A stretch of 64,000 nt of DNA from Imbricaverruca yamaguchii (taxonomy: Eukaryota > Arthropoda > Thecostraca > Neoverrucidae). The notes beneath the pieces were generated by a model. The model was not told where the DNA came from and did no database searches. It worked only from the letters and a program-made list of their open reading frames with translations. The position numbers and the translations under genes were made by a program. Shown one piece after another: positions 754 through 61,512 of the stretch (the stretch's first letter is position 1; each line of letters begins with the position of its first letter). The stretch is from the NCBI GenBank assembly GCA_034440575.1, contig JAOTOL010001507.1:1011501-1075500 (forward strand), written 5' to 3'.

Positions 754-1013
754 AGAATTGTCTGCTCCTTTTTCACCAAAGGATGGGGTGGAGCCATTTG
801 CAGTTGACTGAAAATGAATTAAAATGACTTATTGTGTGGTGAAAACTCCAAAAGCTGACGGCGAGGTACAACAAAGAGCCCCTGATGTCGGGAATACTGT
901 CTTGTGCTTGCGATGTCCGGAACTATCCGCTCATAATGCATCGTCCCTCGATTGTTGCAAATGGAATCGAATCACTTAACAAGTGTGAACTGCAGATTGA
1001 CTAACATTTCCCC

Positions 1014-1067
1014 CATGGGCACAATATGACCAGAGCAGTCGAAGCGCCCGAAAGCCCAAATAACTAA
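1014..1067 (+). mobile_element. Hairpin-tail micro-insertion (54 bp)
   Basis: A short copy of the LINE 3' module (ATATGACCAGAGCAGTCGAA, then GCGCCC and AAGCCCAAATAACTAACT). It is flanked by imperfect repeats CTAACATTTCCCC (1001-1013) and CTGACATTTCCGC (1068-1080). A more degraded tail (GCGCGCCCTGAAGCCCAAATA) lies at about 1140-1162. Confidence 0.7.
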
Positions 1068-3466: not shown

Positions 3467-3521
3467 ATGGGCGCTGTATGACCGAAGCAGTCGATGCGCC
3501 CCTAAGCCCAAATAACCGACC
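3467..3521 (+). mobile_element. Hairpin-tail micro-insertion (55 bp)
   Basis: Consists only of the hairpin (GGGCGC, TATGACCGAAGCAGTCGAT, GCGCCC) and the tail CTAAGCCCAAATAACC. It is bounded by an exact 14-bp duplication, TACGACGCATTCAA, at 3453-3466 and 3522-3535. Confidence 0.9.
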
Positions 3522-3628: not shown

Positions 3629-3792
3629 GGGACGAGCAGCCTAAGGGTAAGTCGCTCGTCTCACAATCGAAAGGTCGTGGGTTCGAATCTCACCCGTCGC
3701 TACTCTTCGCTCGCGTCAATCGGCCTGAGAGATTGGCGACACTACATGACTCAACGGTCGATGTGTCGTAAAGCCTATAACCAACCAACCAG
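3629..3792 (+). mobile_element. SINE family b (tRNA-Glu-like head)
   Basis: tRNA-like head (GGGACGAGCAGCCTAAGGG, box B GGGTTCGAATCTCACC) with a CTC anticodon-position triplet. The body is CTACTCTTCGC...CAATCGG. The 3' end is CGACAC, a loop ending AACGGTCGAT, GTGTCG, and TATAACCAACCAACC. The target duplication CCGGAGAYGCCGTGG lies at 3614-3628 and 3793-3807. Confidence 0.88.
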
Positions 3793-6818: not shown

Positions 6819-7000
6819 GGGGATGGGGGAGTGGCCGAGTGGTTAGGTTGTTCGGCTCTGGGTGCCAAAGGCCCCGAGTTCGACACTAGCGCCGCTCGGG
6901 ACACTTTCCAATCCCGCGGCCCACCGGCGAAACGATGCGGGCGGCGCCATCAGTTGTGAATGTGCAGAGTGCGTCGTGAACCACCCAATGAACAAACCCG
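6819..7000 (+). mobile_element. SINE family a
   Basis: Head GTGGCCGAGTGGTTAGG, body CCCAATCCCGCGGCCCACC and GGCGGCGCCATCAG, tail CCCAATGAACAAAC. Inserted in a GTGTGACCT repeat, which also supplies the flanking duplication, so the exact left edge is uncertain by a few bases. Confidence 0.82.
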
Positions 7001-7227: not shown

Positions 7228-7353
7228 GTCCCAACACGAACGGCTCGCAGTTCTTCCTGTGCACGGTGAAGACCACCTGGCTGGACGGCAAGCACGTGGT
7301 GTTCGGCACCGTCACCGACGGCATGGACGTCGTCAAGAAGATCGAGGGCTACG
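7228..7353 (+). CDS. CypA: Cyclophilin A-type PPIase, exon 4
   Basis: 126 nt between GGGGCAG and GTGAGC, phase 1 in and phase 1 out. It encodes [25 protein letters not shown] and [15 protein letters not shown]. The tryptophan of the cyclosporin/proline pocket (TTWLDGKH) and the following histidine are present. The last intron is phase 1, consistent with exon 5. Confidence 0.95.
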
Positions 7354-8802: not shown

Positions 8803-8980
8803 GGGGCGGGGATGGCCGAGTGGTTAAGGTGTCGGGCTATGGGTACCAAAGGTCCCGGGTTCGACTCTAGCGCCACTCAGGACATTTCCCAATCCCGCGG
8901 CCCACCGGCGAAACAGTGTGGGCGGCGCCATTAGCCGTGAATGTGCATGAAGTGTGTCGTGAACCAACCAATAAACAACA
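8803..8980 (+). mobile_element. SINE family a in the last cyclophilin intron
   Basis: A full-length family-a copy with exact 14-bp duplication ACCTCCGTCGGCTC at 8789-8802 and 8981-8994. The right duplication was itself later copied by the micro-insertion at 9002-9057. Confidence 0.9.
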
Positions 8981-9001: not shown

Positions 9002-9057
9002 TGGGCGCTGTATGACCGAAGCAGTCGATGCGCCCCTAAGCCCAAATAACCAACCAA
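9002..9057 (+). mobile_element. Hairpin-tail micro-insertion (56 bp) at a splice acceptor
   Basis: A complete hairpin module with duplication TCGGCTCTTSCAGG at 8988-9001 and 9058-9071. The right duplication copy contains the acceptor CAG and first base of exon 5; the left copy is a duplicate acceptor-like CCAG. Confidence 0.93.
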
Positions 9058-9625: not shown

Positions 9626-10080
9626 TCAACCAGCCAGCTGCGGTTGCCAAGGCAACGCGCTTCTTGTTATTAATTTACCCGCGTGTTCGCTAGGGTGGTT
9701 TTGGAGGACATGGCCCGTGCTGAGCGGTGCTCCTCGGGTGGAACTCGAGGCCACCGCCGGGTCCGGTGGTTCCGGCCCCGGGGCATCGTGGGAAATTTTG
9801 GGTTTCACGTCCCGGCAACGCACCGACGTCGTTGCGCGTTTGCTGCGTGCCCGGACGGTACTGGCAGTTCCCGGTCGGCCCCCCTCAACTGGGGTTCAGT
9901 GCGAGTGTCTGCAGCGGCTCGAGCCCCGCCAGGCCGGGACGGGCACCGCTCACCAGCCGACGTCTGCAGGATGAGGCTCACAAGACCTACTTTCAGAAGG
10001 TCTATTTTCAGAAGATCTAATCTTGTGAGCTTCGCGCTGTCTGGACTACTGCTCTAGGCCATGCAGCCCGGCCTGGCCAG

Positions 10081-10216
10081 TTAGTTGCTCGTCTCACAAT
10101 CGATAGGTTGTGGGTTCGGGTCTCGCCTGTCGCTACTCTTCGCCCGCGACCAATCGGCGTGAAAGATTGGCGACGCTGCATGACTCAACGGTCTGTGTCA
10201 ACAACAATAACAATAA
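10081..10216 (+). mobile_element. SINE family b, 5'-truncated
   Basis: Starts inside the tRNA head at TTAGTTGCTCGTCTCAC, keeps box B, and has a shortened hairpin end (CAACGGTCTGTGTCAAC). Duplication CCCG(G)CCTGGCCAG at 10067-10080 and 10217-10229. Confidence 0.85.
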
Positions 10217-10382
10217 CCCGCCTGGCCAGGACGGCGCCCACCTCCCCCGGTTTTTAGGTACCTTAAGTTGCAATAAGCACTTTGGGATGGGCCCTGGATG
10301 GAGAGGGAGGGTCATTGGGTCGACCGTGGACCCCGAGGTGAATAGCAGGTCCGCTGAGCAGACGGAAGGCCTGTGTTGAGTG

Positions 10383-12849: not shown

Positions 12850-14318
12850 CCACAAAACAAAGAACACTTCACGAGGCATCATAAGTTGCTTTGATCTCGG
12901 AGACGTGCCGAAGGATGAGATAGTGGATGGGCTATCAGAGTTTGGAGTGGCAGCGACGAAGAAAATAAGGGTTAGGAGAGGCGGATAATTAATTGCAACC
13001 AACAATATCATTCTGACTTTCGATAGAACATATTTGCCTTCTCAGATACAGGTAGGGTACATTAGTGTTAAGGTGCGCCTTTTCCTCCCGAATCCCATGC
13101 GCTGCTTCACGTTCAACGATATGGACATACAAACAAATTTTGTCGGAACCATCCCATGTGTTGCAAGTGTGCTTCTCCCGCCCACACAGGCGAGCAGTGT
13201 ACCACTGAAATACCCTTCTGTGTAAACTGTGGTAAAGAACAAAAAAAAAACACTTCTTTCGATCGCACCTGTCCTAGCTACACCAAAGAAAAGGAAATTA
13301 TTTCTACCAAATGCTCAAACAAAGTTACGTTCTGTGAAGCTCTGGATTTATATGAGAAATCTCACCCAAGGGTATCGTACGCTTCGAAAGTTAACAACAT
13401 TTCCACAATTTCACAAGTTCCAGTATGCAACACTGCACAATTGATCGCACAGCTGAGTGCTCTTTTTCGCTCCTTAGGCGTAATTTCTCCCTCTCCAACG
13501 AGACAATCTGGGCAGGAACCCCGTTCCGAGGTGTCAGAATGCGGTGCTTCTACATCACTAGCTCCCGAAGTGACTCATATCCCAGCCGTTGAACGGGCTC
13601 CGGAGGAATGGAGTCTTTCCCAGCGGACCGAGCGGACCGGCAGGCACTCCAACGTCAACCTGCAATCCTTACCCTCAACATCCACCGGCCCCAACCCCAC
13701 CCATTCCATCCGTGAACCTTCTGAAACCACTCCTACTCCCTTCGAGGGCGGGGAGTGGACACTGGTCCAACGGTCCAAGAGGCCTCCCCAGTCCTCATCC
13801 AATCCAGACCCTTCCCCATCTGCCTCAGCACCCTTGAAATCCCCATCCATCATTTCCCGCCCCCCATCAACCTTCCCTCACCTTCACACTCCACCACCCC
13901 GTCCAAATCAATCATCTCCACCTCTTCCCTACCAGAGCCTTCCTCCATTCCGGTGAGCCAGACCTCACCACCACCCTCAACTTCCACTTCCGCGCCTGCA
14001 TCCCCGTCCCGTGACACCCGTCCAATCCACTATCAGGAGGCCGAGAGGCGCGCCCGCGAGGCGAAGAGGGCGCGCCGGGCTCAAATGGAGAGGGCTCGGG
14101 CGACGAGCCGCCAAGACCCCGACAAGGCCCTGCCCCAAAGGCCGGCTACCCCATCGCCAAGAAGGCGAATTGAGGGACCGGCGGTAGACCAGGCTACCTA
14201 CGACATGGGCCCTCCCCCGCCTCCTCCCTGGCTGGGGGCACAGACACGAGGCTTGCTGTCTTCTGGTTCACCACCGGGTCAAGAATCGCCGAACACTCGG
14301 CCTAGACCTCAGCTTTAA
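12850..14318 (+). pseudogene. LINE ORF1, nucleic-acid-binding Gag-like protein, broken
   Basis: Recognisable from about 12890 (DVPKDEIVDGLSEFGV, then IILTFDRTYLP, VGYISVKVRLF, PNPMRCF). A stop at 12987-12989 and a frameshift near 13140 break the frame. The CCHC region (CASPAHTGEQC and FCVNCGKEQ) follows, then a long Pro/Ser-rich stretch and, in a third frame, a basic region (ERRAREAKRARRAQMERARA), with the stop at 14316-14318. ORF1 proteins of this group bind the element RNA. The true start is not recoverable because the N-terminus upstream of 12.9 kb contains several stops. Confidence 0.8.
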
Positions 14319-14439
14319 ACCACTTCTACCCGATTCAGCCTCGTCATACTTTCTGGTTTCACAATGGACCCCGTTAAGATGGTGATCTGCGATCAGCTGT
14401 GATGCATCTTTGGTGCTTTAAGTATTTTTTATCACTTTA

Positions 14440-17400
14440 ATGGATGCCTTAAACACAATATTACAATGGAATTGTAGGGGGATAAGATCTAGTGCCCAGG
14501 ACTTGCAGGTGATGCTAAGACAACACTGTCCGATTGCGGTGTGTCTCCAGGAAACAAAGCTTACAGGAAACTACAATTGCACGATGAAGAATTATCAAAT
14601 ATCACGCAAGGACATAGCAACCGACACCGTAGCACATGGTGGTGTGTTACTGGCGGTACACTGCAGCGTACCCGTGCAGCAGCTAGATTTAAATACAACT
14701 TTGCAGGCTATCTCCGCACGTATTCATCTTAGCCATAGATCGGTGTCAGTGTGTTCACTATATTCACACTACCTCCCGGGACTGCATTTCCGGCATCGGA
14801 AGTCAGACATCTGATATCTCAACTCCCAGAACCATTTTTGATTTTAGGAGATTTCAACTCTCATCACACCGTCTGGGGATGTGATAACGTTAACGCCCGC
14901 GGACAAGCTTTGCACTCACTACTATTAAACGAAGCTATATGCTTGTTAAACACAGGTATGCATACACATTTCACTCTACCCTCGGGTCATTCATCGGCAC
15001 TAGACCTGAGTCTTGCGAGCCCGCAACTAGTAGATTCATTTGAGTGGTCGGTGCACACCGATCCTCTTGGTAGCGACCATTTTCCTGTGTGGCTATCTTA
15101 TCGTGATGGGTCGGTTCTTGCTTCTAGACCTCCTCGTTGGAATCTCAGGAAAGCGGATTGGACACTGTTCGCAGATAAAATGGAGACCCTTGTAGATGCG
15201 GGCTGTGAACTATCTCCTCCAATTGTAGAAGAGTTCACCTCTAAGCTTCTGCAATCCGCAGCAGGAACTGTTCCGCGCACAACAGGCACTCCTCGTCGTA
15301 CCCCTGTCCCGTGGTGGACGGACGCCTGTCGCGACGCTATACGGACACGTAGGCGAGCTTTCAGGGCCTTCGACAACCGAAGCACAACTGCAAATCTTGT
15401 ATTTAGACGAGCACGTGCCCTCGCGCGTCGTACCATCCGGGAGGCCAAGCGAGTCTCCTGGAGAGAGTATGTGAGTAAACTGTCCCGTTTTTCGGCCATA
15501 TCACAAGTGTGGTCACGTGTGAAACGCATTTCAGGCCATTATGATTCGTTGCCACTCCCGGTTTTGGATGTTGCTGGATGACGGATTATGCACCCTGCCG
15601 AGGTGGCTAACGAAATTGGAGAAGTGTTGTCGGAAAGATGTCGCGTGAGCAACCTGGACGCAAAATTCCTCCGTTTCAAACGTCGCTGCGAGGAAACATC
15701 TATCGACTTATCAACCTCCGTTCCACTAAATTATAACCATTCTTTTACATTAGCCGAACTAACATCAGCCATAAACTCCCTGCAGAACGTGTCGGAAGGA
15801 CTGGACTGCGTCCATAATAGTATTCTAAAGCACCTGCCAGTGAACGCCGTCTATGAACTCTTTATGTGTATTGAATACACTTTGGCATAGCGGCAACTTT
15901 CCAGCTTCCTGACGGGAGGCCATTGTGGTGCCTCTGCTTAAACCTGGAAGGAATGCATATGATCCACATAGTTATAGGCCTATTTCACTCACATCATCAT
16001 TATGTAAGCTTTTGGGGAAGCTGGTCAATGTCAGACTGGCATGGTTCCTAGAAACAAATAACATTTTAGCTAACGCCCAGTGTGGTTTTAGGAAGTATCG
16101 CAGTACAGTGGATCACATTTTAGCTCTCGACACTACTGTACGTGTTGGCTTTAAGGAAAAAACGACATGTTGGGGCCATATTTTTCAACATAGAGAAAGC
16201 GTATGATACTACATGGCGGTACGGTGTCTTGAAGAAAATGTTTAACTATGGGATTCGTGGTGCGATGGGTATCTTTATCAACAATTTTCTAGGTGATCGG
16301 TTTTTAGGTTAGAATTAATAACTGCCTTTCTCGACGTTTTACACAAGAAAACGGTATACCACAAGGCAGCGTTCTAAGTGTCGCATTGTTTACTATCATG
16401 ATAAACGATATTTGGAATTGTCTACCACAGTCCATCGGTCGGTCCCTCTTTGTAGATGATCTTGCGATTTGGTCCTGTGGCGCTAGCACTCACTCTGTGG
16501 AGCGGCAACTGCAACTGGCGGTGAATCGGCTTGAAAGGTGGAGTTTTACAAATGGACTTATGGTTTCCAAATCGAAGACTGTAGGTGTTCATTTTTGTCG
16601 TCGTCGTCGACCATGCCCCGGTTTTTCAGTGAAAATGTTTGGCACGGAGATCCCTACCAAACCAGTTTGCAAGCTTTTGGGAGTGCACTTTGACAATCGC
16701 CTGAAATATCGGGAACACTTTAGAATTCTTACGGATAGATGTTTTAAGGCATTGAATATCTTGAAGTGTGTGGCAAGAACTTCATATGGTGCAGACCGTA
16801 AGACATTACTGCTTTTTTAGAGATCACTCATCCGCTCAACGCTTGACTATGGCTGCTTAGTTTACGAATCGGCTTGTACATCTGACAAGCGAACGTTGGA
16901 TGTTATGCACAACGCGGCCTTGCGAATTGCCACTGGTGCATTTCGAACGTCCCCTACGGCAAGCCTTCTGGTTGAAGCGCAGGAGCCATCCCTTGCCTTG
17001 CGGCGTATCATGCTTGGAATGAGATACGCATGCAAGTTCTCACAATTTCCAAACCACCCCACACATGATATGGTGTTTTCGTCACGCATTGTAAACCTAT
17101 TCCATGGATTATCTAATCAGCGTTCGTCACCTTTCTGTATCAGGCTCTATAATGCACTGTCCGAGTGGAATCGCTTTCCGTAACGTGATGAAACTGAGCG
17201 CTCTGGATGCTCCTCCCTGGGAGTTACGGGCGCCGAAAATCGATGTTACACTGAGCGAAAACTATAAACATGATACCCTACCTCAAGAGTTCCGAATTAA
17301 AGCACTGGACCTCATTGCGTCCTACGTCGGCTACAAGACAACACGGACGGTTCAAAGATCGAAGCTGATGTTGTCTCGGCGTTTGTTAGCGGCTCCGCCA

Positions 17401-18595
17401 CACGATCTTTTACGCTACCTGTGCAGGCATCCGTCTTCACATCGGAATTGGTAGCCATTGACGAAGCATTGTGCCTTATACAAGTATCTGACGAAACATT
17501 GCACCTCATCCCAACAGATACCCAACCAACTCAACCCAACAGTCTCAGTAGTCTCAGAAACCCACTGACAGCAGAACGGGACTAAATATTTCAATACAAC
17601 TTTAAATATTTCACGTTTTCGGCAGCCGACGTAGCCGACATTGATCCAAGCCAGTATAGCATAATCGGCCAAAACACCGCGTGACGACATCCATCCATGC
17701 TGTGACGTCAGAGGCTGTGGACGGCGATTTTGCTTGAGCCAATCGGTTCTGATCGATTCTGCTCCGAGCCGAGTCCTGCCCAGTCCTGTAGACGTCAGGG
17801 TCACACCGGGAGTTGCCCGGTTTCTGCCGCGTGTGGACAGACCTTTAACTATAGAGCACGCGCAATAAGTTTTCCCTGGGTGATGTAAGATAACCGCGAA
17901 ACGACGCAGCGCACGGTGACCAGGCAGAACAGATAGTCTCAGTAGCCTTATGGCACTGAGATCTTTTAATTCATCACGCTCCATTGTCCAGGAAATAGTT
18001 TTGGGGTTGACGTAACTACGTGCAGATGGTAAGACTATCGTTCTGTGCTCGATTTCGAGCCACGTCGGTATATCGGGGAATGAGGCTGCTGACGCGGCTG
18101 CAAAGCGCGCAGCACAGAAACCATGTATACGGTATATATCCAGATATATCCAGGCCATTCCTGCTAGAGATGTATATCCAATTATTAACAATTATGTTTT
18201 TCGTGAGTGACAGGTGCTTTTGGACGCGGTCGGTGAAAACAAGCTTAGGACAATTAAGCCTAGCATCGGCCAGTGGTCCTCGTGCTCGCGTAGGACTGGG
18301 CGAGACTAGATGACTGTGCCGCCTACGCATTGGCCATACGTACGCAACTCACAAATATCTTCTTTGTGGTGATGATATGCCCATGTGCCCCAGATGCTAG
18401 GGACGTCTTTCAATGCGTCATATCTTAACCTCATGTCCTCAGCTTTCTAATGTTTACAAGCACTACTTTGGTCGATCGCAGGCACTATCAATTCGTGATG
18501 TTCTTGGGGATGACTCGGTCGCGATCAATTCTGGTAAATTGTTCCACTTTCTTCCGGAGGTAAACTTCACTTATATATATTATCCTGTCTAATCC
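14440..18595 (+). pseudogene. LINE ORF2: endonuclease, reverse transcriptase, RNase H, broken
   Basis: ILQWNCRGIRS and CLQETKL at the start, then (after a frameshift near 14770) ILGDFNSHHTVWG and LGSDHFPVW mark the AP-endonuclease. RT segments are VVPLLKPGR, YRPISLTSS, FFNIEKAYDTTW, ENGIPQGSV and SLFVDDLAIW. The catalytic Asp of motif A is Asn here, while FVDD is intact. Stops lie at 15579, 16818 and elsewhere, with frameshifts near 15890, 16180 and 16310. RNase H follows with TDGSKIEADVV and SELVAIDEAL, is interrupted at 17552, and resumes with SLSSLMALRSF and SSHVGISGNEAADAAAK (the last frame-shifted). The C-terminus has MRHILTSCPQL, then LFHFLPEVNFTY. Confidence 0.92.
17552..17934 (-). mobile_element. 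383-bp element nested in LINE RNase H region
   Basis: Splits the LINE between NSLSS and SLSSLMALRSF. The 11-bp AGTCTCAGTAG is duplicated at 17541-17551 and 17935-17945; removing the element and one copy restores the frame at this point. A second copy in the opposite orientation lies at 20628-21013. No tRNA boxes, clear terminal inverted repeat or ORF was found. The class is unknown. Confidence 0.85.
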
Positions 18596-19575
18596 CTTGT
18601 ACGTGAGCAAATCCGCACGGTACGATTGTTTAGGATTGACACAGTTTAAATAGTTGAGTTATGGGCGCTGTATAACCACTGCAGTTGATGTGCCCTAAGA
18701 CCCAAATAACCAACTAACGACCTCGAAGTGCATTTTCAGCGCACGATAGCCCAACACCTAGAGCCTATCATCAGCATATAACTAACAGTGCTGATCATCG
18801 CACTCCCCACCGACCTGAATCCCTGCCGTGGAAAATAGAGGAAATCTGGTGACTGGGGTTTCCGAGTGCTGACGACATGGGCGGGACTAAAATAATGTGA
18901 CGGGGACAATATATTTCGGAGGCGCAAATCGACACCAAGTATTAAAACGTTCCTCGATTTCCATCGTTATTTTCTGGCTGTCCCCACCCCTTTACACTTT
19001 TTTCATGTGATAATTGTTCCCTCTTGCTCTCAGCCCCGGATTACTGATTTCCACTGGCGTTCGTTCCTTCTGCAGTGTGTTGAGCCGCGACCGGCACGCC
19101 CGCGCGGTTGGTATGTCCGCCGGTTGAGCCCTCGGGCTGTGCCGCGCCGTGTTTAGGCATGTTATCGACCCGTGTGCAGGCCGGGCCGCTTCCGGCGGCG
19201 GTGGCGATTTGAACGGGCCAATGGGCGCGCGGGGCGAGCGTGCCGGCGTGTGGGGGAGACTGGCGCGGCGGCGGTTGAGCCGGCGGGGGCCGAGTGCGTT
19301 GCGGCGACCTGTGAGAGTGTGAGGTGGCTGAATATACGGTCCCGGCATCGCCGTTTTTTTTCTGTCGCGTAAACTACACCTTTCATACATCGTTAGAAGA
19401 TGTAATGTTTAACTTGGTTTCAAGTGTGTGGTGCGTGCCTCCCACTCTCGGGACAGCGGAGCCGACCATGGAGATTTCTGCCACCAAATTTGTTTGATGA
19501 GAGTATAAATGCCAACCGTAATTTGATAGGGATATAAACTTCGCTCCCGATCCCAATATTCGCTATATGTTGTGA

Positions 19576-19640
19576 ATGGGCGCTACATAGCCAGTAGCAG
19601 TTGATGCGCCCTTAAGCCCAAATAATCAATCAATCAATCA
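19576..19640 (+). mobile_element. Hairpin-tail micro-insertion (65 bp)
   Basis: GGGCGC...GCGCCC hairpin with a tail extended as (AATC)n. Exact 14-bp duplication GCTATATGTTGTGA at 19562-19575 and 19641-19654. The 18730-19560 stretch before it holds a GC-rich patch (about 19080-19340) and no recognisable gene. Confidence 0.92.
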
Positions 19641-30859: not shown

Positions 30860-31209
30860 ATCATTCTCCAGAAAGTATTGATATCCTGCTACTTGATGCA
30901 TGCTTATCAAGTCTTGGGAGTCTGACAGACATCAAAAGCATTTTCAAGAACACGAATCACATGGCAAATTTAGACATCCTACTGTGCCTGTCACATTTCA
31001 CACCTAGGGGGTCGCAGTATCTCAGTTGGTAGAGCGTCAGACTCTTGATCACAAAATTGTGGGTTCGAATCTCGCAACCGATGGCATTTCCGAGTCCAAC
31101 CGCGACCAACTGGTGTGAACAGGTTGGTGACATAGCAGCTGAATGTGTTGTAAAAGAACCCCAATGGACATATCACACCTAACTATAAAAATACGTTATT
31201 TTAACCCTG
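30860..31209 (+). mobile_element. hAT-like MITE, family 2, interrupted by a SINE
   Basis: Contains GACATCAAAAGCATTTTCAAG, GACATCCTACTGTG and the right end ATTTTAACCCTG at about 31209. SINE c is inserted at 31007-31168. Left end not resolved. The stretch 29340-30860 holds no gene I recognise; a GC-richer frame at 30380-30658 (minus) has no known motif. Confidence 0.6.
31007..31168 (+). mobile_element. SINE family c (tRNA-Lys-like head)
   Basis: Head TATCTCAGTTGGTAGAGCG, anticodon-loop sequence CTCTTGA (CTT, lysine) and box B GGGTTCGAATCTCGCAACC. Body CCGCGACCAACTGG; 3' end a weakened hairpin and GTTGTAAAAGAACCCC. Duplication ACATWTCACACCTA at 30993-31006 and 31169-31182. Confidence 0.87.
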
Positions 31210-31251: not shown

Positions 31252-31303
31252 TGGGCGCTGTATGACCGAAGCAGTCGATGCGCCCCCAAGCCCAAATAAC
31301 CAA
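31252..31303 (+). mobile_element. Hairpin-tail micro-insertion (52 bp) upstream of BTB exon
   Basis: A complete GGGCGC...GCGCCC module with duplication CCAACGCAGCCRATACA at 31235-31251 and 31304-31320. It ends 51 bp before the BTB exon acceptor. Confidence 0.9.
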
Positions 31304-33677: not shown

Positions 33678-33734
33678 ATGGGCGCTGTGTGACCAACGCA
33701 GTCCATGCGCCCGAAAGCCCAAATAACCAACCAA
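33678..33734 (+). mobile_element. Hairpin-tail micro-insertion (57 bp)
   Basis: GGGCGC, loop TGTGTGACCAACGCAGTCCA, then GCGCCC, tail AAATAACCAACCAA. Exact 14-bp duplication CCATACATTTACCA at 33664-33677 and 33735-33748. This is the cleanest single example. Confidence 0.95.
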
Positions 33735-34754: not shown

Positions 34755-34816
34755 TGGGCGCGAATGATCAACCGTGGTCGATGCGCCCTACAGCCCAAAT
34801 AACTAAACTAAACTAA
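34755..34816 (+). mobile_element. Hairpin-tail micro-insertion (62 bp)
   Basis: GGGCGC, loop with CAACCGTGGTCGAT, GCGCCC, tail AAATAACTAAACTAAACTAA. Exact 13-bp duplication ACTGCTGCTGTTG at 34742-34754 and 34817-34829. Lies about 97 bp before the likely acceptor of the proline-rich exon. Confidence 0.92.
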
Positions 34817-35275: not shown

Positions 35276-35310
35276 GTCAGGGTCGCCCGCCGCCCGGCGC
35301 CGTGACGCGG

Positions 35311-35466
35311 TAACCTAACCCAACCCAACCTAACCTAACCTAACCTAACCTAACCTAACCTAACCTAACCTAACCTAACCTAACCTAGCCTAACCTAACC
35401 TAGCCTAGCCTAACCTAACCTAACCTAGCCTAACCTAACCTAACCTAACCTAACCTAACCTAACCT
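35311..35466 (+). repeat. Interstitial telomere-type array (CCTAA)n
   Basis: About 31 pentamers TAACC with a few CAACC and TAGCC variants, equal to TTAGG on the minus strand, the ancestral arthropod telomere unit. It lies just inside the intron after the proline-rich exon. Confidence 0.95.
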
Positions 35467-35566
35467 GTGGACGCCGACCGTGCTCAAATCAACCATTCTG
35501 CCGGAGTGTGGCATCGAAACAGTTTCCCACTTGGAAAACCAGGGTGTCCCACCTGGGATCCGTGGG

Positions 35567-35722
35567 ACGAGTAGTCTATGGGTACGTTGCTCGTCTCACA
35601 ATCGAACGGTTGTGGGTTCGAGTCTCACCTGTCGCTGCTCTTCGCCCGCGGCCAATCGGCGTGAGAGATTAGCGACGCTACATGGCTCAACGGTCGATGT
35701 GTCGTAAAACCAATAACCACCA
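35567..35722 (+). mobile_element. SINE family b
   Basis: Head GGGACGAGTAGTCTATGGG, box B GGGTTCGAGTCTCACC, hairpin end CGACGC, loop ending AACGGTCGAT, GTGTCG, tail AAAACCAATAACCA. Confidence 0.85.
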
Positions 35723-36956: not shown

Positions 36957-37662
36957 GTAAGTGTGGGCGGTACCTGGGTGGGCCACGCCACCGCCTTCCC
37001 CCACACAGAACACCCACTGCAGGTCGACCCTGTTGGTAGCACTGGTATACCTGTTGTAGTGGTATCGATACCAGTGTGTACCTATCACTGGTAGCTGTGT
37101 TCTTGTCCGTGGTAGTTTTATACATATTGCTACGACACCGTTACCAGTGTGTACCTGTCGGTGACAGCTGTATAACTGTTACAATGGTACTGTTACCAGT
37201 GTGTACCTGTCGGTGACAGCTGTATAACTGTTACAATGGTACTGTTACCAGTGTGTACCTGTCGGTGACAGCTGTATAACTGTTACATTGGTACTGTTAC
37301 CAGTGTGTACCTGTCGGTGACAGCTGTATAGCTGTTACAATGGTACTGTTACCAGTGTGTACCTGTCGGTGACAGCTGTATAACTGTTACATTGATACTG
37401 TTACCAGTGTGTACCTGTCGGTGACAGCTGTATAACTGTTACAATGGTACTGTTACCAGTGTGTACCTGTCGGTGACAGCTGTATAACTGTTACATTGAT
37501 ACTGTTACCAGTGTGTACCTGTCGGTGACAGCTGTATAACTGTTACAATGGTACTGTTACCAGTGTGTACCTGTCGGTGACAGCTGTATAACTGTTACAA
37601 TGGTACTGTTACCAGTGTGTACCTGTCGGTGACAGCTGTATAACTGTTACAATGGTACTGTT

Positions 37663-37893
37663 GGACGGTTGAATACCGACTCTTCTTTACGTATGCTTAT
37701 AGGGAACGACTCCGAGGCCGTGGCGTCTGGGAATATTTTTATGTTCATCCGACAAGCTCGCTTTGACGTGATATACCCCCACCCGTGAAGATGGATAGTG
37801 AGCTATGAAAGCAGCACCATAGATTGATTGCAATTTAGTTATGGGCGCAAAATTACCCTAGATGTCGACGCGCCCCTAAACTCCAATCCAATT
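37663..37893 (+). mobile_element. 5'-truncated LINE copy, second subfamily (231 bp)
   Basis: Encodes the last ~35 residues of a LINE ORF2 (LRMLIGNDSEAVASGNIF-like), then a short UTR and the hairpin GGGCGC...GATGTCGAC-GCGCCC with tail CTAAACTCCAATCCAA. Closely similar to 51657-51891. Imperfect 13-bp flank duplication from the minisatellite (37650-37662, 37894-37906). Confidence 0.85.
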
Positions 37894-37955
37894 CAGTAGT
37901 GCTGTTACCAGTGTGTACCTGTCAGTGACGGTCGTGTACCTTTCAGTGACAGCTG

Positions 37956-38010
37956 ATGGGCGCTGTATAAGCACTGCAGATGATGCGCCCTAAAACCCTT
38001 CTAACTAACT
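37956..38010 (+). mobile_element. Hairpin-tail micro-insertion (55 bp)
   Basis: GGGCGCTGTATAAGCACTGC...GATGCGCCC with tail AAAACCCTTCTAACTAACT. Duplication CAGTGACMGCTG at 37944-37955 and 38011-38022. From 38400 to 39870 I see no gene or named repeat; this AT-rich intron stretch has only short unsupported frames. Confidence 0.87.
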
Positions 38011-39874
38011 CAGTGACCGCTGTGTACATGTTTCAGTGTTGCTGTTACCAGTGTGCAGCTGTTGGTGTCAGCTGTGTACCTTTCAGTGACAGCTGTGTAC
38101 ATGCTGCAGTGGTACTGTTGCCAGTGTGTACCTGTGTGTGTCAGTTGTGCACCTTTCAGTGACAGCTGCGTACATGTTGCAGTGGTACTGTCACTAGTGT
38201 GTACGTGTTGGTGACGGTTGTGCACCTGTTGCAATGACACTGTTACCAGTGGGTGCCTGTCTGTGACAGTTGTGCACCCGTTGCAATGACACTGTTACCA
38301 GTGGGTGCCTGTCTGTGACAGCTGTGCACCCGTTGCAGTGTTACCATTACCGGGTCCGTCGCAGCGGCTCGTCGACGACGGATCGACGCCAGGTAAGCCA
38401 GCAACGCGTCATCGCTGTGGTGTCGACGTCAGACAGACCGGGAGTCAGACGGAGCGTCAGGCATTGCGGCAGCCCCGCCGCCAGAAGCCCCGTACAGCCG
38501 CATAGTCAGGTCGGCCCCGGGCTGTCACGACGGCGTCGCGTACAATGATTCACCGATCATTCGGGGATGTTTTGTATTGTTGAGGCGGTTTTATACGGTG
38601 GATGTTTCTCATTGAAGTCGGTGCCCAGTGCGCGTGGATTGTGGTTTTCCTACTGCGAAAATGCGCCATTTGTAACATAAATTTGCGAGTATAGCGCGTG
38701 CAGCTTTGTTGGAATGTGCAGCAGAAAACTGCTAGCATGAAGAGAAACAAAACAACGATATGTTTATATCGGACCACGTGCACTAAACGAAAACCGATAA
38801 AAATCAATCGGAATATTCCAAAGAAAATTATCGAAATTGGGAATCTTCAAAATCGTCAGCAGACCTTCATGTTTTTACGTTACTCAGCAGATCTCCATAT
38901 TCTTGCGTTATTCACGGGGCTCCAGGGTTCGAGGTTGAAGGAATGGAGGTTTAGAGGTGCGCTGCCAACTCCCGGTCTGTCTGAGGTCAATCGGAGGTCA
39001 CGCACATCGAATGCTACACGTCGGGTACCATTGCAAGGTCACTTGCAATGTTACCATACCATACCATGCATATTTATACTGTGAATTGGGTTGCAGCACC
39101 ATCTTACTTCTGTCAGTTCCTGTAATTAGTGATCCGAGTTTCGATAGCATTTTTACAATTCACGATGGATAACAATACCATGGCATGTATACTAGTTCAA
39201 TCTTCACCATGAAAGAAAGAAATGGAAAAAAAGAAGGAAAGGTGAGCCTGGTAATTCGGTTGGAGTTTTAATTGCCGGTGCAAGTTTTCAAACGTCCATC
39301 AGTTTTCTTCGAAACTTAGTTGAGAATATGCAAAAACATAGTATAACGCGAAGGAGTAAATCAAGTTCCTATTTCCGTGAAACGGTTGCCTTTTAATCAT
39401 ACAGTGCTAATTCAAAGTACGAGCCATGCCTATTTTCCGCTGCAGTAGATGATCAAGACCAAGCGCCCAAAGCTTTCTCTTGGGAACGTCAGGGTATTGG
39501 CAATTCGACCAATGGATTTCCCTCTAAATCGTCACATGCTAAATTGGCGGGTGACCTGACGTGTACGCTGCGCCTGACCTCCGATTTGTGTTTCTATGCT
39601 GATGTGTGATGTTGGTCGCGTTGGCATCTTGCACCACCAGATTATTACCGTAAAACGGACGTCATCATTCTCGCCTTAGTGTTAAAGTTCGACGATTTCT
39701 GGTCGTCCTCCGTCCGTGTGTCCAAATGGGGTTTTCGTGATATTGTTCTAGTTACACAAATGTATCACGATTTTGTGCCGTCCTGTTTTTCTTTATCGTT
39801 ATCCAGACCCATGACTTGCGCCTCTTATGTGTTTATATAGTGGAACGAAATAATTCAATATTGGAATTTCCTAA

Positions 39875-40740: not shown

Positions 40741-41872
40741 TTAACACTTCCATGCTGCACTCCCTCGTGAATTGAACATCACATAATCAGCGAGTTAATT
40801 TGTGGTATTCCGAGGGGGCTGGGTGGTCTGCGTATAGGTGTTGAAACGTTCCAACTTGTCGCCACGCAAACTTAAACTGTTTCCTCCATGTATGTGCTTC
40901 TTGCAGTCGCAGGAAATGCATGGTCGAGAAGAAGGGAACGTCCATTGTCTTCGCCTGTTCCCACACCCATCGTTCCTAGTCAGCAGCATTTGCTGAAGGA
41001 TGAAAGTACTAATCCTTGGTTTGAAGGGAAACCAGAGTTTGAAGTAGTCTCTGGTTTGAGGGGAAACCAGAGATAAGTAGTAATCCTTGTTCGTATTCGA
41101 AATATAGGATAAAGGTTAGCAAGGCTTTATTTCAGTCACCTCAATTCATCTTCATTTCGAGTAATTTGGACACACTGTCGTCGACGACCTGTTGTCGATT
41201 GTGACGTCACACCGGCGTCATCACGCGATTTCGGTGGTTGCAAGCTGCCAACGCGACGACAGCGCCGCGTATTGCCAGTCGGGCTGTACGGGCTTGTTGG
41301 TAACACTGGTCAACAGTGGGCGAGTGTAATGAAATGAAACTAGGGAATGTTTCGGAGATGAATGTGTTTCTTGATGCTTTTCGCACGCTGACTACGAAAA
41401 TTATCGCCATCCGCAAGATAAGACCTAAAAAAATTCCACAAATTGTACCACTACCACCATCACCAACATCACCACCACCCATAGTGTAGTATTACCACCA
41501 CCTATATTGCGTACGATATTGTTATCATAAGGTGCCATCAATTGTGCAACCTGACCAAATGCGACGACCACTAATCTCACTGATGCACTGGTTATAGGCT
41601 ATATTTTGCTGCCGCTAGGTAACTTCCAAGGGATACTTAGCTACAGTTATCGTTGCGAGACACATCGATGTGTTCATAGATACGCATTGTACTGAATGCC
41701 AATAAGCACCCTGAAGTTTGTCGTGGGAAAACGTTTATTTCCTTGTTGCTGGGAAAGTTGGGGAGGGTGAACTGATCTCCCCCGACCCTCGCGCTGTTAC
41801 GCTACTGCTCTGCTCGCGGCAATGCACGCCTTACGGAAGTGTTGGCCATCGTCATCTTGCACCGCGCCGCGG

Positions 41873-42043
41873 TGGCCGCGTTAGCGCAGTCGGTAGAGCG
41901 TCGGACTCTTGACCGGAAGGTTGTGGGTTCGAATCTCGCGACCGGCGGCGTTTACCGAGGCCACTCGCGACCAATCGGCGTGAAAGCTTAGCGACGTTAT
42001 ATAATCTAGCGGTTGAATGCGTCACATAATGGCCCAAGGTTCT
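41873..42043 (+). mobile_element. SINE family c
   Basis: Head GCGTTAGCGCAGTCGGTAGA, CTT anticodon position, box B GGGTTCGAATCTCGCGACC. 3' part GACGTTATATAATCTAGC, GGTTGAATGCGTC. Duplication CTTGCACCGCRCCRYGG at 41856-41872 and 42044-42060. It is a SINE, not a functional tRNA gene: the acceptor stem does not pair and the SINE body follows. A 9-bp-arm palindrome (CCGTGGCAC-ACT-GTGCCACGG) lies nearby at 42215-42235. Confidence 0.87.
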
Positions 42044-42679
42044 CTTGCACCGCACCATGGTGAGCAAAAGAGCAAATGCGAGTACAAATATGCACGAGTC
42101 GATTCTGCCAGCAGCTTTCAGCACGGTTCTCGTTGGACATTGCGATTAATTCGGCTCGTGAAAGTCCACCGGTCCACCTGGAGTTCACACAACATGCGAC
42201 TTGCAGACAAACAACCGTGGCACACTGTGCCACGGTCGCCGACAGACAACTGCCGGCGAGCCGACGCCATTCTCATGCATTTCAAAACCGTGGCACATTG
42301 TGCCATGCATTCTCGTGTGAACGCGAGACCGGCTGACATTGCCGCCAGTCACAGCTCGCCAGCTCGTGTTGGGGGCGTCGCCCGAGCCAAAACCAGTCTG
42401 AATCCTGACGGCTCGCACCCGTCCAGTCTCATATCCGTGATCAGCACCGCAAAATTAGCCAATGTGAGCTGCTTTCATCTCCGAAACATTGCCTCTGTTG
42501 ACCAGTGTGATATGCATGTCTGTGTGTGTGTGTGTGCAAAATACTGATACATTATGTAGTTATCCGTCATATTCGATATAAAGGTATGTTCAAAATTGAA
42601 GCAGTTAAAGTTGGCTACATCATAGAATAGATTTAGGAAGTGCAGTCCACCCTCTCTCGTCACGTGACTACGGGACAGG

Positions 42680-43635: not shown

Positions 43636-43689
43636 TGGGCGCAAAATGACCCTAGATGTCGACGCGCCCCCAAACTCCAATCCACCACC
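43636..43689 (+). mobile_element. Hairpin-tail micro-insertion (54 bp)
   Basis: GGGCGCAAAATGACC, GATGTCGAC, GCGCCC and CAAACTCCAATCCACCACC. Duplication GCTGGTTTAARACC at 43622-43635 and 43690-43703. Confidence 0.93.
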
Positions 43690-45551: not shown

Positions 45552-45713
45552 AGGGAGGACGAGTAGTCTAGGGGTATGTTGCCCGTCTCACAATGGACAG
45601 ATCGTGGGTTCGAGTCTCACCTGTCGCTACTCTTCGCCCGCGACCAATCGACGCGAGAGATTAATAACGCTACGTGATTCAACGGTCGACGTGTCGTAAA
45701 ACCAACAACCAGC
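45552..45713 (+). mobile_element. SINE family b
   Basis: Head AGGACGAGTAGTCTAGGGG, box B GGGTTCGAGTCTCACC, tail GTGTCGTAAAACCAACAACC. Duplication TAARGYAGTTGTGG at 45538-45551 and 45714-45727. Confidence 0.87.
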
Positions 45714-45972
45714 TAAGGTAGTTGTGGCGTCCGACGCTAACCGCTAAGTGCGACCAAGGTGGCGCAAAATGATTAAAGAGACTAAGGATACGAACAAGAT
45801 TTGAGGTGGACGATCTCAGAGAGGATGCACTGAGGAGGAGCATATTACAATGTATTACTGCAGTGTGCTTCATTGGAGGCTGGGAACTCCCGACATAAGG
45901 AAAACGTCAGACAAAATTTTCAGTTGGTAAACCATAAAGCTGAAATGACATGTTGAACAGGGGAGCCGAGGG

Positions 45973-46301: not shown

Positions 46302-46355
46302 TGGACTCTGCATGACCGATGTAGTCGATGCGTCCCTAAACTCATTACCAACCAA
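46302..46355 (+). mobile_element. Hairpin-tail micro-insertion (54 bp)
   Basis: GGACTCTGCATGACCGATG...GTCGATGCGTCCC; the stem GGAC/GTCC replaces GGGC/GCCC. Exact duplication TAGATCGCAGGA at 46290-46301 and 46356-46367. A further AGATCGCAGGA follows at about 46389 after a short AACCAACCAA segment. Confidence 0.85.
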
Positions 46356-46745: not shown

Positions 46746-46798
46746 TGGGCGCAAAGTGGCCCTTGATGTCGACGCGCCCCTAAACTCCAATCCACCAC
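46746..46798 (+). mobile_element. Hairpin-tail micro-insertion (53 bp)
   Basis: GGGCGCAAAGTGGCC, GATGTCGAC, GCGCCC and CTAAACTCCAATCCACC. 16-bp duplication CAYGGACGGATGCATA at 46730-46745 and 46799-46814. Confidence 0.93.
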
Positions 46799-46819: not shown

Positions 46820-46995
46820 GGGGGCCGCGGTATCCCAGTTTGTCGAGAATAGGACCATTGCTCGCAAGATTGTGGGTAGCAATCTCACAGCCGAAGGCGT
46901 TCACCGAGTCCACCCGCGACCGATCGGCGTGAGACGCTAGGTTGGCGACGCTATGTGACCTAGCGGTTAAATGCGTCGTAAAAAGAACCCAAGGG
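46820..46995 (+). mobile_element. SINE family c, diverged head
   Basis: Degraded tRNA-like head (GCAAGATTGTGGGTAGCAATC), body CCACCCGCGACCGATCGGCG, and perfect hairpin CGACGC, loop with GTGACCTAGCGGTTAAAT, GCGTCG, then AAAAAGAACCC. Confidence 0.8.
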
Positions 46996-47099
46996 TGCAG
47001 AAGGGCATTAGGAACAGGTGACCCCATCCAAGAGGAAAGGTGACGCACCTCCAGCCGGGGAAGGCACCCCTTCAGGAAGCATCGAGTGCACTCCCACCA

Positions 47100-47154
47100 A
47101 TGAGCGCTAAATGACCAACCACGGTCGATGCGCCCTAAAACCACAATCACTCAC
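47100..47154 (+). mobile_element. Hairpin-tail micro-insertion (55 bp)
   Basis: GAGCGCTAAATGACCAACC, ACGGTCGAT, GCGCCC and AAAACCACAATCACTCAC. Exact duplication GCACTCCCACCA at 47088-47099 and 47155-47166. Confidence 0.9.
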
Positions 47155-47690: not shown

Positions 47691-47744
47691 TAGTTAGTTA
47701 TTTGGGTTTTAGGGCGCATCAACTGCAGAGGTTATACAGCGCCC
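47691..47744 (-). mobile_element. Hairpin-tail micro-insertion (54 bp), the only minus-strand copy
   Basis: The reverse complement has GGGCGCTGTATAACCTCTGC, AGTTGATGCGCCC and AAATAACTAACTAA. Duplication TCTTTTCCCAACCCT at 47676-47690 and 47745-47759. The following 47760-49025 is AT-rich; apart from one half of an unidentified repeat pair (about 48545-48790) I see nothing in it. Confidence 0.93.
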
Positions 47745-49040: not shown

Positions 49041-49200
49041 TGGGACGAGTAGCCTAGGGGTAAGTTGCTTGTCTCACAATCAATAGGTTGCGAGTTCGAG
49101 TCTCACCTGTCGCTACTCTTCGCCCGCGACCAATCGGCGTGAGAGATTGGCGACACTACATGATTCAGCGGTCGATGTGTCGTAAAACCAGGAACCAACC
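49041..49200 (+). mobile_element. SINE family b
   Basis: Full copy with hairpin CGACAC, loop TACATGATTCAGCGGTCGAT, GTGTCG. Duplication AAAAAGTTSAATA at 49028-49040 and 49201-49213. Confidence 0.9.
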
Positions 49201-49214
49201 AAAAAGTTCAATAG

Positions 49215-50859: not shown

Positions 50860-51033
50860 GAGGGGCAAGGTAGCTCAGTCGGCGAGGCGTTGGACTTTTG
50901 ATCGCAATATTGTGGGTTCGAATCCCGCAACCGGCAGGATTACTGTTTCCACCCGCGACCAATCGGCGTGAGAGGTTGGCGACGCCATTTTGCCTTGCAG
51001 TTGAACCCGTCGTAAAAGAACCCAAGGTACTCC
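50860..51033 (+). mobile_element. SINE family c
   Basis: Head GGTAGCTCAGTCGGCGAGGC, box B GGGTTCGAATCCCGCAACC. Hairpin CGACG, loop with TTGCAGTTGAA, CGTCG, tail TAAAAGAACCCAAGG. Exact 14-bp duplication TTCTGGCATCACTA at 50846-50859 and 51034-51047. Confidence 0.92.
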
Positions 51034-51108
51034 TTCTGGCATCACTACACTCTCCCCTCCCACATATGTATTGTGCACTTCATGTACCACTACCATTTCT
51101 ACCCTAGG

Positions 51109-51282
51109 GCGAGGTTGGCCGAGTGGTTGACTTATTGAGCTGTGGGTACCAAGGTCCCGAATTCAACACTCGCACCACTCGGGACATTTCCCAGTCCCGC
51201 GGCCAACCGGTGAAACAGTGTGGGCGGCGTCATTAGTGTTGATTGTGCATAAAGTACGTCATGGAACATCCAAATAGCGACC
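51109..51282 (+). mobile_element. SINE family a
   Basis: Head GGTTGGCCGAGTGGTTGAC, diverged box B (AATTCAACACT), body and tail of family a. Target duplication unclear. Confidence 0.75.
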
Positions 51283-51476: not shown

Positions 51477-51891
51477 TCACCGAACCAAACGTCGGGAAGA
51501 AGTAATACTTTGTCGATTGAGAATAGGCCATACCTTTGCAACACATAGCTATATGTTGACCGGTAATGACCGCGTCCGCGCTGTTCTACCCCGCTTACCG
51601 TGTACCATGTTTTAGTTCGCTGTACACTGCTAGATCCTCTACTACGCCAGATTTTAGGACGGTTGAATGCCGACTCCTCTTTACGTATGCTTATAGGGAA
51701 CGACTCCGAGGCCGTGGCGTCTGGGAATATTTTTATGTTCATCCGACAAGTTCGCCTTGACGTGATAAACCCCCACCCGTGAAGATGGATAGTGAGCTAT
51801 GATAGCAGCATCGTAGACTGATTACAATTTAGTTATGGGCGCAAAATGACCCTTGATGTCGACGCGCCCCTAAACTCCAATCCAATCCAAT
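51477..51891 (+). mobile_element. 5'-truncated LINE copy, second subfamily (415 bp)
   Basis: Encodes the ORF2 C-terminus in pieces: TKRREEVILCRLRIGHTFAT, SYMLTGND, then (frameshifted) YHVLVRCTLL, and RLNADSSLRMLIGNDSEAVA with FIRQVRLDV, ending at a stop. A short 3' UTR and the hairpin GGGCGC...GCGCCC with tail (CCAAT)n follow. Exact 14-bp duplication CCGTCTCAGTGCCC at 51463-51476 and 51892-51905. Confidence 0.92.
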
Positions 51892-52717: not shown

Positions 52718-53605
52718 CCCGTGCCCCGTCTCGGGAGAGGGGGGTCGATACGTGCCCCTATGCCCGCTCTAATATCGAAACTAAGCGTCGCACGAAAACG
52801 AAAGGTTGTCATCGGAGAGCGCTTGACGAGCAGAGCCACAAGCCACCACATAATATTTCTCCCCCGAGCGTGACAGCACGCCAAGGTGTTTATGTGGTCA
52901 CGACCGACGTCATGGATTTGGCTCTTGGGAGTTCGTTTTGGAGAAGATTTTTAAAATAAAAATAATTTGGGATAAAAAAGGAAGGCGAAATCGACCATGG
53001 CCCCAAAATATATTCCGGCTGTGTGACCATCGCAGTCGATGCTCCCATAAGCCCATGTAACCAACCAAAATATGTTCCAAGCCAAAAATCAACTGTTTAT
53101 ATTTTACCCAGTTTTCGTAATTTCGAGTTTTCAATTTTCTTCATATTTGAATGAGTAGAGCGGACGGTAAAAGGTTATTTTAAGTCAACTTGCCTTCATA
53201 AACGTGCCTACATTAGCCGGAATCTTCAATTTTAACCCTTATGGGCGAATATGCAAAACCAAAAGCATAATACATGATAGTCAAAAACATAAGTCACCAA
53301 AAACGGAAAAAAAAATTCAGGTACGTTACGTTGCATCCCTAAAGATAACCAAACGTTGGAAGTTGTATTAATGTATCTTTATCCGCTAAAGCGTGACGAT
53401 TGGTAAACCTTTTTTGGACGTGACCTCACTATTGACCTTCACTAACACTTCGACCGTCGCTGACCTGACCTCAACATATTTATACAACATACCGAATTGG
53501 TGTGGAAAAAGAAATGTCCATTTTCGGCGCATCGCAGCGCGCCGTTCTTTCCATATTCGCGGAGAACCTTTGCGGGGGGCATATCAGCCCCCGAGACGGG
53601 AATGG
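52718..53605. mobile_element. TTAA MITE family B, copy 3
   Basis: CTAG (a mutated TTAA) at 52714-52717 and TTAA at 53606-53609. Ends CCCGTGCCCCGTCTCGGG and CGAGACGGGAATGG. Subterminal hairpin CGGGGGGC...GCCCCCG. Interrupted by a micro-insertion at 53017-53064. Confidence 0.83.
53017..53064 (+). mobile_element. Hairpin-tail micro-insertion (48 bp) inside MITE B
   Basis: GGCTGTGTGACCATCGCAGT, CGATGCTCCC, then ATGTAACCAACC; the hairpin stem is decayed. Duplication CCAAAATATRTTCC at 53003-53016 and 53065-53078. Confidence 0.85.
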
Positions 53606-61179: not shown

Positions 61180-61351
61180 AGGTACGAATTTGTTCAGCAG
61201 TAAGTGTGATGTCAGAAGTGGGTGGCATAGAGCGGGACAAGCTACTGTTCGGAAGCGGTTTGCCTACTAGATGGGAGGTATAATTTGTCAGCTGTGGTAA
61301 TGGTGTTTCCTTGTGATCTTCATGCAATGCACACAGCCGAATGCTCCGGGG

Positions 61352-61512
61352 TTGAGGTAGCTCACTCGGTAAGACGTTCGACTCTTGGCTGCACTATCGT
61401 GGGTTGGAATCGCGCAGATGGCGGAGTTACCGAGTCCACCCGCGACAAGTCGGCGTCAGAGGTTGACGACGCTATATGAAGCAGCAGCCAAATGCGTCGT
61501 AAAATAACCCAA
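61352..61512 (+). mobile_element. SINE family c
   Basis: Head GAGGTAGCTCACTCGGTAAG, box B GGGTTGGAATCGCGCAG, perfect hairpin CGACGC, loop with AAGCAGCAGCCAAAT, GCGTCG, tail TAAAATAACCC. Target duplication unclear. From 61520 to 62960 nothing is recognised apart from a possible family-2 MITE scrap near 62690-62750. Confidence 0.82.

Follow-up and report, generated by a model that had tools for sequence, protein, structure and literature searches.

The window, that is, the whole stretch of 64,000 nucleotides analysed here (1011501-1075500 of contig C1274 in the 767-Mb assembly of 1430 contigs that was surveyed), contains a degraded LINE whose frame is broken at several points and whose 3' end is a hairpin module, together with the 3' hairpins of a second LINE type.

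12989..18716, plus strand: degraded LINE with Pfam-matching pieces, 5' limit approximate, 3' end formed by the hairpin module
14739-15581: endonuclease piece of the LINE (PF14529/PF03372 matches)
15913-16203 and 16308-16820: reverse transcriptase (RT) pieces of the LINE (PF00078 matches)
18401..18589, plus strand: C-terminal piece of the LINE ORF2, used as query for LINE families in the genome
18658..18662, plus strand: GTTAT box, directly 5' of the hairpin (7/7 UTR types; exact in 14/20 genome LINE ends)
18663..18695, plus strand: LINE 3' hairpin, GGGCGC, 21 nt with inner stem TAAC/GTTG, GTGCCC
18696..18716, plus strand: LINE 3' tail, TAAGACCCAAATAACCAACTA
51837..51881, plus strand, and 37843-37887: 3' hairpins of the second LINE type (a2)

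The domain matches identify an APE-type endonuclease (PF14529, E 2.7e-18) and an RT (PF00078, E 5.3e-14 and 2.8e-8); a weak RNase H match (PF00075, E 0.017) lies under the curated cut-off in this broken copy, and a CCHC-like cysteine pattern, a zinc-knuckle ORF1 feature, was recognised by eye at 13072-13956 without a Pfam match. The best relatives of the endonuclease are unnamed ENA-derived proteins, mostly 49-59% identical, a PDB search with the RT piece gave no match, and no TSD was found around the LINE. The preliminary description had given this element a GGGCGC/GCGCCC stem around a loop that it quoted; the module is present, but the terminus at 18655-18715 reads GTTAT and then GGGCGC-TGTATAACCACTGCAGTTGAT-GTGCCC, with a different loop and one G.U pair in the stem, followed by a tail with AAATAACCAACT.

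Profile matches delimit three SINE families, the third of which was absent from the preliminary description.

3630..3788, plus strand: SINE b, full or near full length
49043-49202, 45557-45716, 35565-35722 and 10065-10223, plus strand, 46128-45970 and 7597-7439, minus strand: further SINE b
46821..46997, plus strand: SINE c, full or near full length
41872-42044, 50861-51033, 61348-61520 and 31008-31164, all plus strand: further SINE c
8805..8976, plus strand: SINE d
301-472, 6825-6993 and 51108-51274, plus strand, 10557-10386, 46612-46441 and 36014-35844, minus strand: further SINE d

SINEs b, c and d have a common body (CCCGCGACCAATCGGCG and similar, by eye) with different heads and ends. An Rfam tRNA match points to a tRNA-like head in one SINE c copy (41875-41947), ARAGORN returned none, and in b and d the head was judged by eye only. 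The stems earlier ascribed to these SINEs occur where they had been placed, CGACAC/GTGTCG at 3629-3792 and 49041-49200 in SINE b and CGACGC/GCGTCG at 46820-46995 and 61352-61512 in SINE c, but the former is a minority form (2/7 window copies, 2/20 genome loci), the commonest SINE b stem being CGACGC/GTGTCG with a G.U pair, and SINE c is missing the AAATAACCAACC tail and ends in GTCGTAAAAGAACCCAAGG or similar. Set against the LINE end, the SINE ends have the same fold and a related loop, and in b the same tail, but the outer stem differs and in c the tail differs as well. SINE d, considered as a fourth carrier of the fold, was rejected, as its end does not adopt it (z -0.04). By eye, the bodies of SINEs b, c and d show a possible second hairpin immediately 5' of the terminal hairpin (in b CCAATC/GATTGG, in d CCCAC/GTGGG).

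Elsewhere in the window, 60352-61179 corresponds to a zinc-finger protein (Amphibalanus amphitrite broad-complex protein, 61% over 31% of the query; Pollicipes pollicipes ZF131-like protein, 70% over 25%), on which a barnacle host is most likely and a tick, considered at first, was rejected. In addition, telomere-like CCTAA repeats lie contig-internally at 35300-35460, and GC-rich fragments at 168-220 and 7280-7323 resemble cyclophilin coding sequence by eye and are perhaps processed copies.

Occurrence of the module across the genome

The presence of the module far above chance is confirmed: loop TATGACCGAAGCAGTCGAT has 5 matches in the window with up to 3 mismatches against 0.01 expected, and 6197 in the host genome with up to 2 mismatches against 5 for the reversed pattern. 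The exact loop quoted earlier occurs in the window only at 3477, 9011 and 31261, in all three cases within an insertion consisting of the hairpin and its tail, referred to below as hairpin-only. Searches of the window by nhmmer with window seeds recovered about 20 LINE-type copies, 7 of SINE b, about 7 of SINE c and 10 of SINE d, and pattern scans of a viral contig collection and a separate genome contig collection gave no matches. LINE-type hairpins are denser in the window than elsewhere (26 profile matches at E<0.01 in 64 kb vs 6 in 200 kb) and lie nearly all on the plus strand (22/23, p 5.7e-6); the adjoining 5 kb contain 3 strong matches on the left and 1 on the right, all on the plus strand.

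To find LINE families, the C-terminal ORF2 piece (63 residues) was searched against the genome, which gave 151 matches, 150 of the 4476 first-look candidates having been scored; these fall into groups with identities of about 80-94%, 57% and 51%. Around the matched piece, open ORF2 frames of about 1242-1246 aa are found on contigs C1256, C1328, C1135, C767, C583, C1067, C1240 and C880, and those LINE families may therefore still be active. From the 151 matches, 20 were picked for diversity, and the short stretch 3' of the ORF2 C-terminus contains the hairpin in sense in 20/20, with E <1e-4 in 19 (0.23 in the remaining one, L107). The 3' UTRs vary between the LINE groups in length and sequence, and all 20 ends share a single outer-stem type, GGGCGC/GCGCCC, decayed in some. 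GTTAT forms the five bases before the stem in all seven 3' UTR types compared, with conservation falling at -6, although at most six of the seven are independent since types a4 and B are 69% alike upstream. The LINE families thus retain the GTTAT box, the bipartite hairpin and the AACC/AACT tail while other parts of the 3' UTR diverge.

Fold and covariation of the hairpin

LINE ends, SINE b and SINE c share a bipartite hairpin with a 6-bp outer stem, a 4x2 internal loop and a 4-bp inner stem. Folded singly, LINE types a1, a2 and a3 and SINE b adopt the same architecture (outer stem 6 bp, 7 in b; 4x2 loop; inner stem 4-5 bp; terminal loop 4-7 nt), SINE c forms a close variant, and the energies of all five are modestly better than those of shuffles (z -1.9 to -3.3). 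RNAalifold recovered the bipartite hairpin unprompted from 25 window copies, in which 93.2% of cells pair in the named structure vs 27-53% in slid versions. The same copies contain 24 doubly changed cells vs 9.9 in shuffles (0/500) and have a covariation score of 0.369 vs 0.233 (0/500), while neither the count of doubly changed pairs (4; 343/500) nor that of further pair types (12; 251/500) rises above the shuffles.

As a phylogenetic null, the copies were placed on a tree by FastTree, and the changes in each column, counted by Fitch parsimony, were redistributed along it; the resulting figures are a guide, since the tree was itself built from these short columns. With 25 copies the covariation score again exceeds the null (0.369 vs 0.181, 0/1000; G 3/1000), as it does with 13 representatives, one or two per family (score 2/1000, G 2/1000, doubly changed cells 14/1000), and with 20 representatives including genome LINE families (score and G both 0/1000). 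For 16 LINE-lineage representatives the signal is weaker than for LINEs and SINEs together (score 13/1000, G 16/1000), and without L006, a hairpin-only copy, the values are 9/1000 and 78/1000. Covariation above this null is therefore seen in the score but not in the count of doubly changed pairs, which stays within the null for the 25 copies (240/1000) and the 13 representatives (65/1000).

The double changes in the outer stem separate LINE from SINE (pairs 5-39 and 7-37), apart from one SINE b pair (9-35), and in the 20 LINE ends, which make up 14 distinct rows, none of the six outer-stem pairs is doubly changed. As b and c share a body and the LINE ends have one outer type, the outer-stem covariation is essentially LINE vs SINE plus the one SINE b pair. 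The stem classes are thus two lineages, LINE GGGCGC/GCGCCC and SINE CGACGC/GYGTCG, and the earlier view of covarying stems in at least three families, right in that the fold is kept, overstated their independence. The covariation could on these grounds be an artefact of relatedness, as independent lineages are few, the outer-stem changes mainly divide LINE from SINE and some measures stay within the nulls. We regard this as improbable: the score lies above the tree-based nulls, one inner-stem pair swaps between A-U and G-C within the LINEs (the covariation score of these 20 ends, taken by themselves, is reached by 14/500 shuffles), and L006 has both sides of its stem changed, to GAGCGC/GCGCTC. 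Together with the unprompted fold and the excess of doubly changed cells over shuffles, this supports the proposal of the preliminary description that the hairpin is a selected RNA structure.

Insertions of the hairpin alone

The short insertions had been described as ending in the LINE module. The module is present in them, but many consist of hairpin and tail alone between TSDs, and the description missed that most short copies are such hairpin-only insertions. Those of the window are as follows.

3467..3521, plus strand: hairpin-only, 55 bp, TSD TACGACGCATTCAA, inside an antisense SINE c fragment
9002..9057, plus strand: hairpin-only, 56 bp, TSD TCGGCTCTTSCAGG
31252..31302, plus strand: hairpin-only, 51 bp, TSD ACCAACGCAGCCRATACA
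33678..33734, plus strand: hairpin-only, 57 bp, TSD CCATACATTTACCA
19576..19640, plus strand: hairpin-only, 65 bp, TSD GCTATATGTTGTGA
47691..47744, minus strand: hairpin-only, 54 bp, TSD AGGGTTGGGAAAAGA
34755..34816, plus strand: hairpin-only, 62 bp, TSD ACTGCTGCTGTTG
43636..43689, plus strand: hairpin-only, 54 bp, TSD GCTGGTTTAARACC
46746..46797, plus strand: hairpin-only, 52 bp, TSD CCAYGGACGGATGCATA
46302..46355, plus strand: hairpin-only, 54 bp, TSD TAGATCGCAGGA
47100..47154, plus strand: hairpin-only, 55 bp, TSD GCACTCCCACCA
1012..1066, plus strand: hairpin-only, 5' boundary placed to within a few bases, TSD ACTRACATTTCC
53017..53064, plus strand: hairpin-only, start about 3 nt within the stem, TSD CCAAAATATRTTCC
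37956..38009, plus strand: hairpin-only, within a tandem repeat, where the TSD is weaker evidence because of the repeat

The last of these belongs to an array of about 52-bp tandem repeats (37150-38100) that holds a LINE end and a hairpin-only copy.

To quantify this, TSDs were scored within a few bases of the stem in 75 copies: 22 from the window (4652, degenerate, left out; 47102 included; a few starts shifted), 28 a3-loop loci and 20 a1-hairpin loci from the genome, both chosen by loop or hairpin sequence alone and taken first in contig order, mostly from small contigs, and 5 chosen by place (200 kb with 6 HMM matches at E<0.01, the partial one at 6836 of L022 being left out). A TSD score of at least 9, which mispaired flanks reach in about 0.4% of 2952 trials, was obtained for 55/75 copies. 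After merging of copies that represent one insertion in a larger repeat (L002, L029, L033, L036 and L041) and of the two units of one dimer (L007 and L008), 51 of the 70 deduplicated LINE-type copies are hairpin-only with a TSD of this score abutting the hairpin base, distributed as 14/22 in the window, 18/23 a3 events, 15/20 a1 loci and 4/5 of the place-chosen copies. Among the genome events, 33/43 are hairpin-only by score and 37/43 when copies read by eye are included; the dimer and L049 also qualify by eye. Most LINE-type module copies examined are thus neither LINE nor SINE but hairpin and tail alone. They occur for several LINE types (a1, a2, a3 and others), measure about 55 bp (most 50-65 bp) and have TSDs of 11-20 nt with a median of 14. 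With 2369 genome matches to the a1 hairpin (up to 1 mismatch) and 6197 to the a3 loop (up to 2 mismatches), the sampled fractions extrapolate to several thousand hairpin-only copies.

The 5' ends of the 51 insertions are tightly placed with respect to the stem: 17 lie at offset -2, 16 at -1, 6 at 0, 7 at -3 to -5 and 5 at +2 to +4, so that 39/51 begin within -2 to 0 and most start inside the GTTAT box, at AT or T. Hairpin-only copies carry a TSD and the LINE tail as ordinary 5'-truncated LINE copies do, and truncated copies are normal for LINEs, with ends at varied positions, 100 to 1000 bp (PMC3747384). Nevertheless, it is highly improbable that they are random truncations that are short by chance, a reading contradicted by the spike of 5' ends; longer copies are moreover a minority among the loci read, and no such stop is seen in the SINEs surveyed in the same way. 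Even more remote is the idea that they are MITEs, very small DNA transposons whose terminal inverted repeats would be GGGCGC/GCGCCC. An inverted repeat and TSDs are indeed present, but a variable AACC/AACT repeat tail extends beyond the 3' arm, and this one-sided tail contradicts the idea; the TSD length varies from 11 to 20 nt, and LINEs end in the same module.

The SINE survey comprised 20 loci each of SINE b and SINE c, chosen as the LINE-type loci were from 8606 and 817 matches and reduced to about 15 b and 17 c events by merging copies inside larger repeats. In all of these the SINE body lies upstream of the hairpin, with a few copies truncated within the body, and inspection found 0/32 hairpin-only events, compared with 33/43 for the LINE type (Fisher p 1e-12). 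The TSD score at the hairpin base was reached by 1/20 b loci (L085, counted as chance because the SINE body continues upstream) and 0/20 c loci, while TSDs scoring at least 9 flank the SINEs' own 5' ends in 13/20 b and 6/20 c loci. Starts near the hairpin do exist in SINEs, since window fragments of SINE c begin in or near it (36063, with a TSD, 62973 and 3554) and one fragment of SINE d starts within its loop (52573), but these starts form no visible spike. Copying of SINEs that have this fold thus runs past the hairpin-base point.

Proposed template ends, possible partner elements and known systems

The fold, its covariation, the TSDs, the near-fixed 5' end at GTTAT and the reading of SINEs past this point are all shown by these comparisons, and as a whole they are likely to reflect the recognition hairpin of a stringent-type LINE that is inserted alone by target-primed reverse transcription from templates ending between GUU and AU. 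In stringent LINEs the RT recognises a 3' fold and a repeat tail (PMC4176376), and from these the natural reading of the barnacle hairpin is that it would serve as the reverse-transcriptase recognition signal, as the preliminary description had proposed. The module, to which the ORF2 protein is presumed to bind, would accordingly be the recognition hairpin at the 3' end of LINEs that belong to a stringent-type clade with endonuclease and RT. Hairpin-only copies would arise by target-primed reverse transcription, each with its own TSD, and their fixed end would be explained if the template RNA ended between GUU and AU, either through cleavage or through trimming as far as the hairpin with its bound protein.

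It seems that the enzyme is not halted by the hairpin as such, because in SINEs copying continues through this fold. The stop sits at the box found in LINEs, which leaves either a template end there or a bound protein that blocks copying. For the second case, the full LINE RNA would be the template, and the ORF2 protein or another factor on box and hairpin would stop copying at GUUAU, with box-less SINEs being read through. The 5' ends lie mainly within the conserved box, the bases before the SINE hairpins are mostly ATTGG or GTTGG and these elements are copied further, and no RNA cutting would be needed. We nevertheless lean against such a block, which we consider possible, since LINE copies passing the box exist and the junctions fit run-off better. 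At offset -2 the last TSD base equals the next LINE base (T) in 1/17 only; microhomology is thus not apparent there, which is what run-off from the end of a template should give, and 7/51 insertions (offset -3 or lower) have extra bases between TSD and element, some of which may be decayed TSDs. In 9/16 insertions at offset -1 the TSD finishes with A, identical to the LINE base that would follow, which means either that the element starts at AT or that there is one base of microhomology. Furthermore, L007/L008 on contig C146 is, by eye, a tandem hairpin dimer within one TSD pair whose first unit is without a tail, which suggests a template switch at the 5' end of the hairpin. Little microhomology at -2, the extra junction bases and this dimer favour the model of a template end. 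We tentatively go one step further, in a proposal that may well fail: GUU/AU could be a processing signal that yields an RNA of about 55 nt as the main LINE template, making the bare RT signal the clade's most frequent retroposon, one without head, gene or promoter that by extrapolation would number thousands of copies.

SINE b, and less clearly SINE c, are probably mobilised through the same fold. The partnership of these SINEs with the LINEs described here is a putative one, because the sampled LINEs have GGGCGC/GCGCCC and the SINEs CGACGC/GYGTCG; no LINE was found within the 40 loci read for SINE b and SINE c. A separate LINE whose hairpin has the stem CGACGC/GCGTCG could mobilise them, in which case the likeness would stem from common descent of two systems. 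In line with this, the SINE outer stem occurs in 0/20 of the LINE ends sampled, the SINE c tail differs, and whole stem-loops were not swappable between two zebrafish LINEs in the experiments described in PMC4176376. We think a separate partner rather unlikely, as SINE b agrees with the GGGCGC LINEs in its loop pattern (ATGAC..GTCGATG) and in its AACCAACC tail, and ZfL2-1 was still about half active when its own loop was combined with the stem of the other element (PMC4176376). If the SINEs do use another LINE enzyme, the contrast between LINE and SINE insertions drawn above is weaker.

Several known systems resemble the barnacle module in part. UnaL2 and its SINE in eel and ZfL2-1/ZfL2-2 in zebrafish likewise have a 3' stem-loop and a short tandem-repeat tail in common with SINEs, and ZfL2-1 stays partly active after changes to its stem provided that the loop is kept (PMC4176376); the barnacle differs from what is described there in that the hairpin alone is the commonest product in the sampled loci and has a near-fixed 5' end. 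A plant L1-clade LINE/SINE pair shows compensatory stem changes around a conserved loop and flank, but belongs to another LINE clade, and its account in PMC3747384 is without hairpin-only insertions. Avian CR1 has a 3' hairpin and a microsatellite tail as proposed RT recognition site, but the account in PMC8665684 presents its copies as full length or truncated, without a hairpin-only spike. These reports (PMC4176376, PMC3747384, PMC8665684) thus already document the tails of stringent LINE/SINE pairs, 3' hairpins and stems with compensating changes.

By its domains the barnacle LINE may also be like the Drosophila I element. The tail of that element consists of TAA repeats (PMC3747384), whereas that of the barnacle LINE is AACC/AACT.

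The I element and other RNase H-bearing LINEs have an endonuclease, an RT, an RNase H and a short repeat tail; the barnacle LINE has an endonuclease, an RT and such a tail, and its weak RNase H match may be a further likeness. What appears to be new here are the hairpin-only insertions with a near-fixed 5' end: literature searches with narrow phrases found no account of a hairpin-only or minimal retroposon with a fixed end.

These observations touch on two long-standing questions, the choice of template by LINE enzymes and the incompleteness of most LINE insertions. For annotation, insertions of 55 bp are easy to miss, and a barnacle genome paper of 2022 stated that a comprehensive repeat library for barnacles was unavailable (PMC8917513). 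Probably thousands of insertions, by extrapolation, contain hardly anything besides the recognition signal and have a near-fixed 5' end at a conserved five-base box, and such hairpin-only copies, beside SINEs of the same fold that escape the stop, offer a minimal substrate and a defined box for the study of template choice, processing and 5' truncation.
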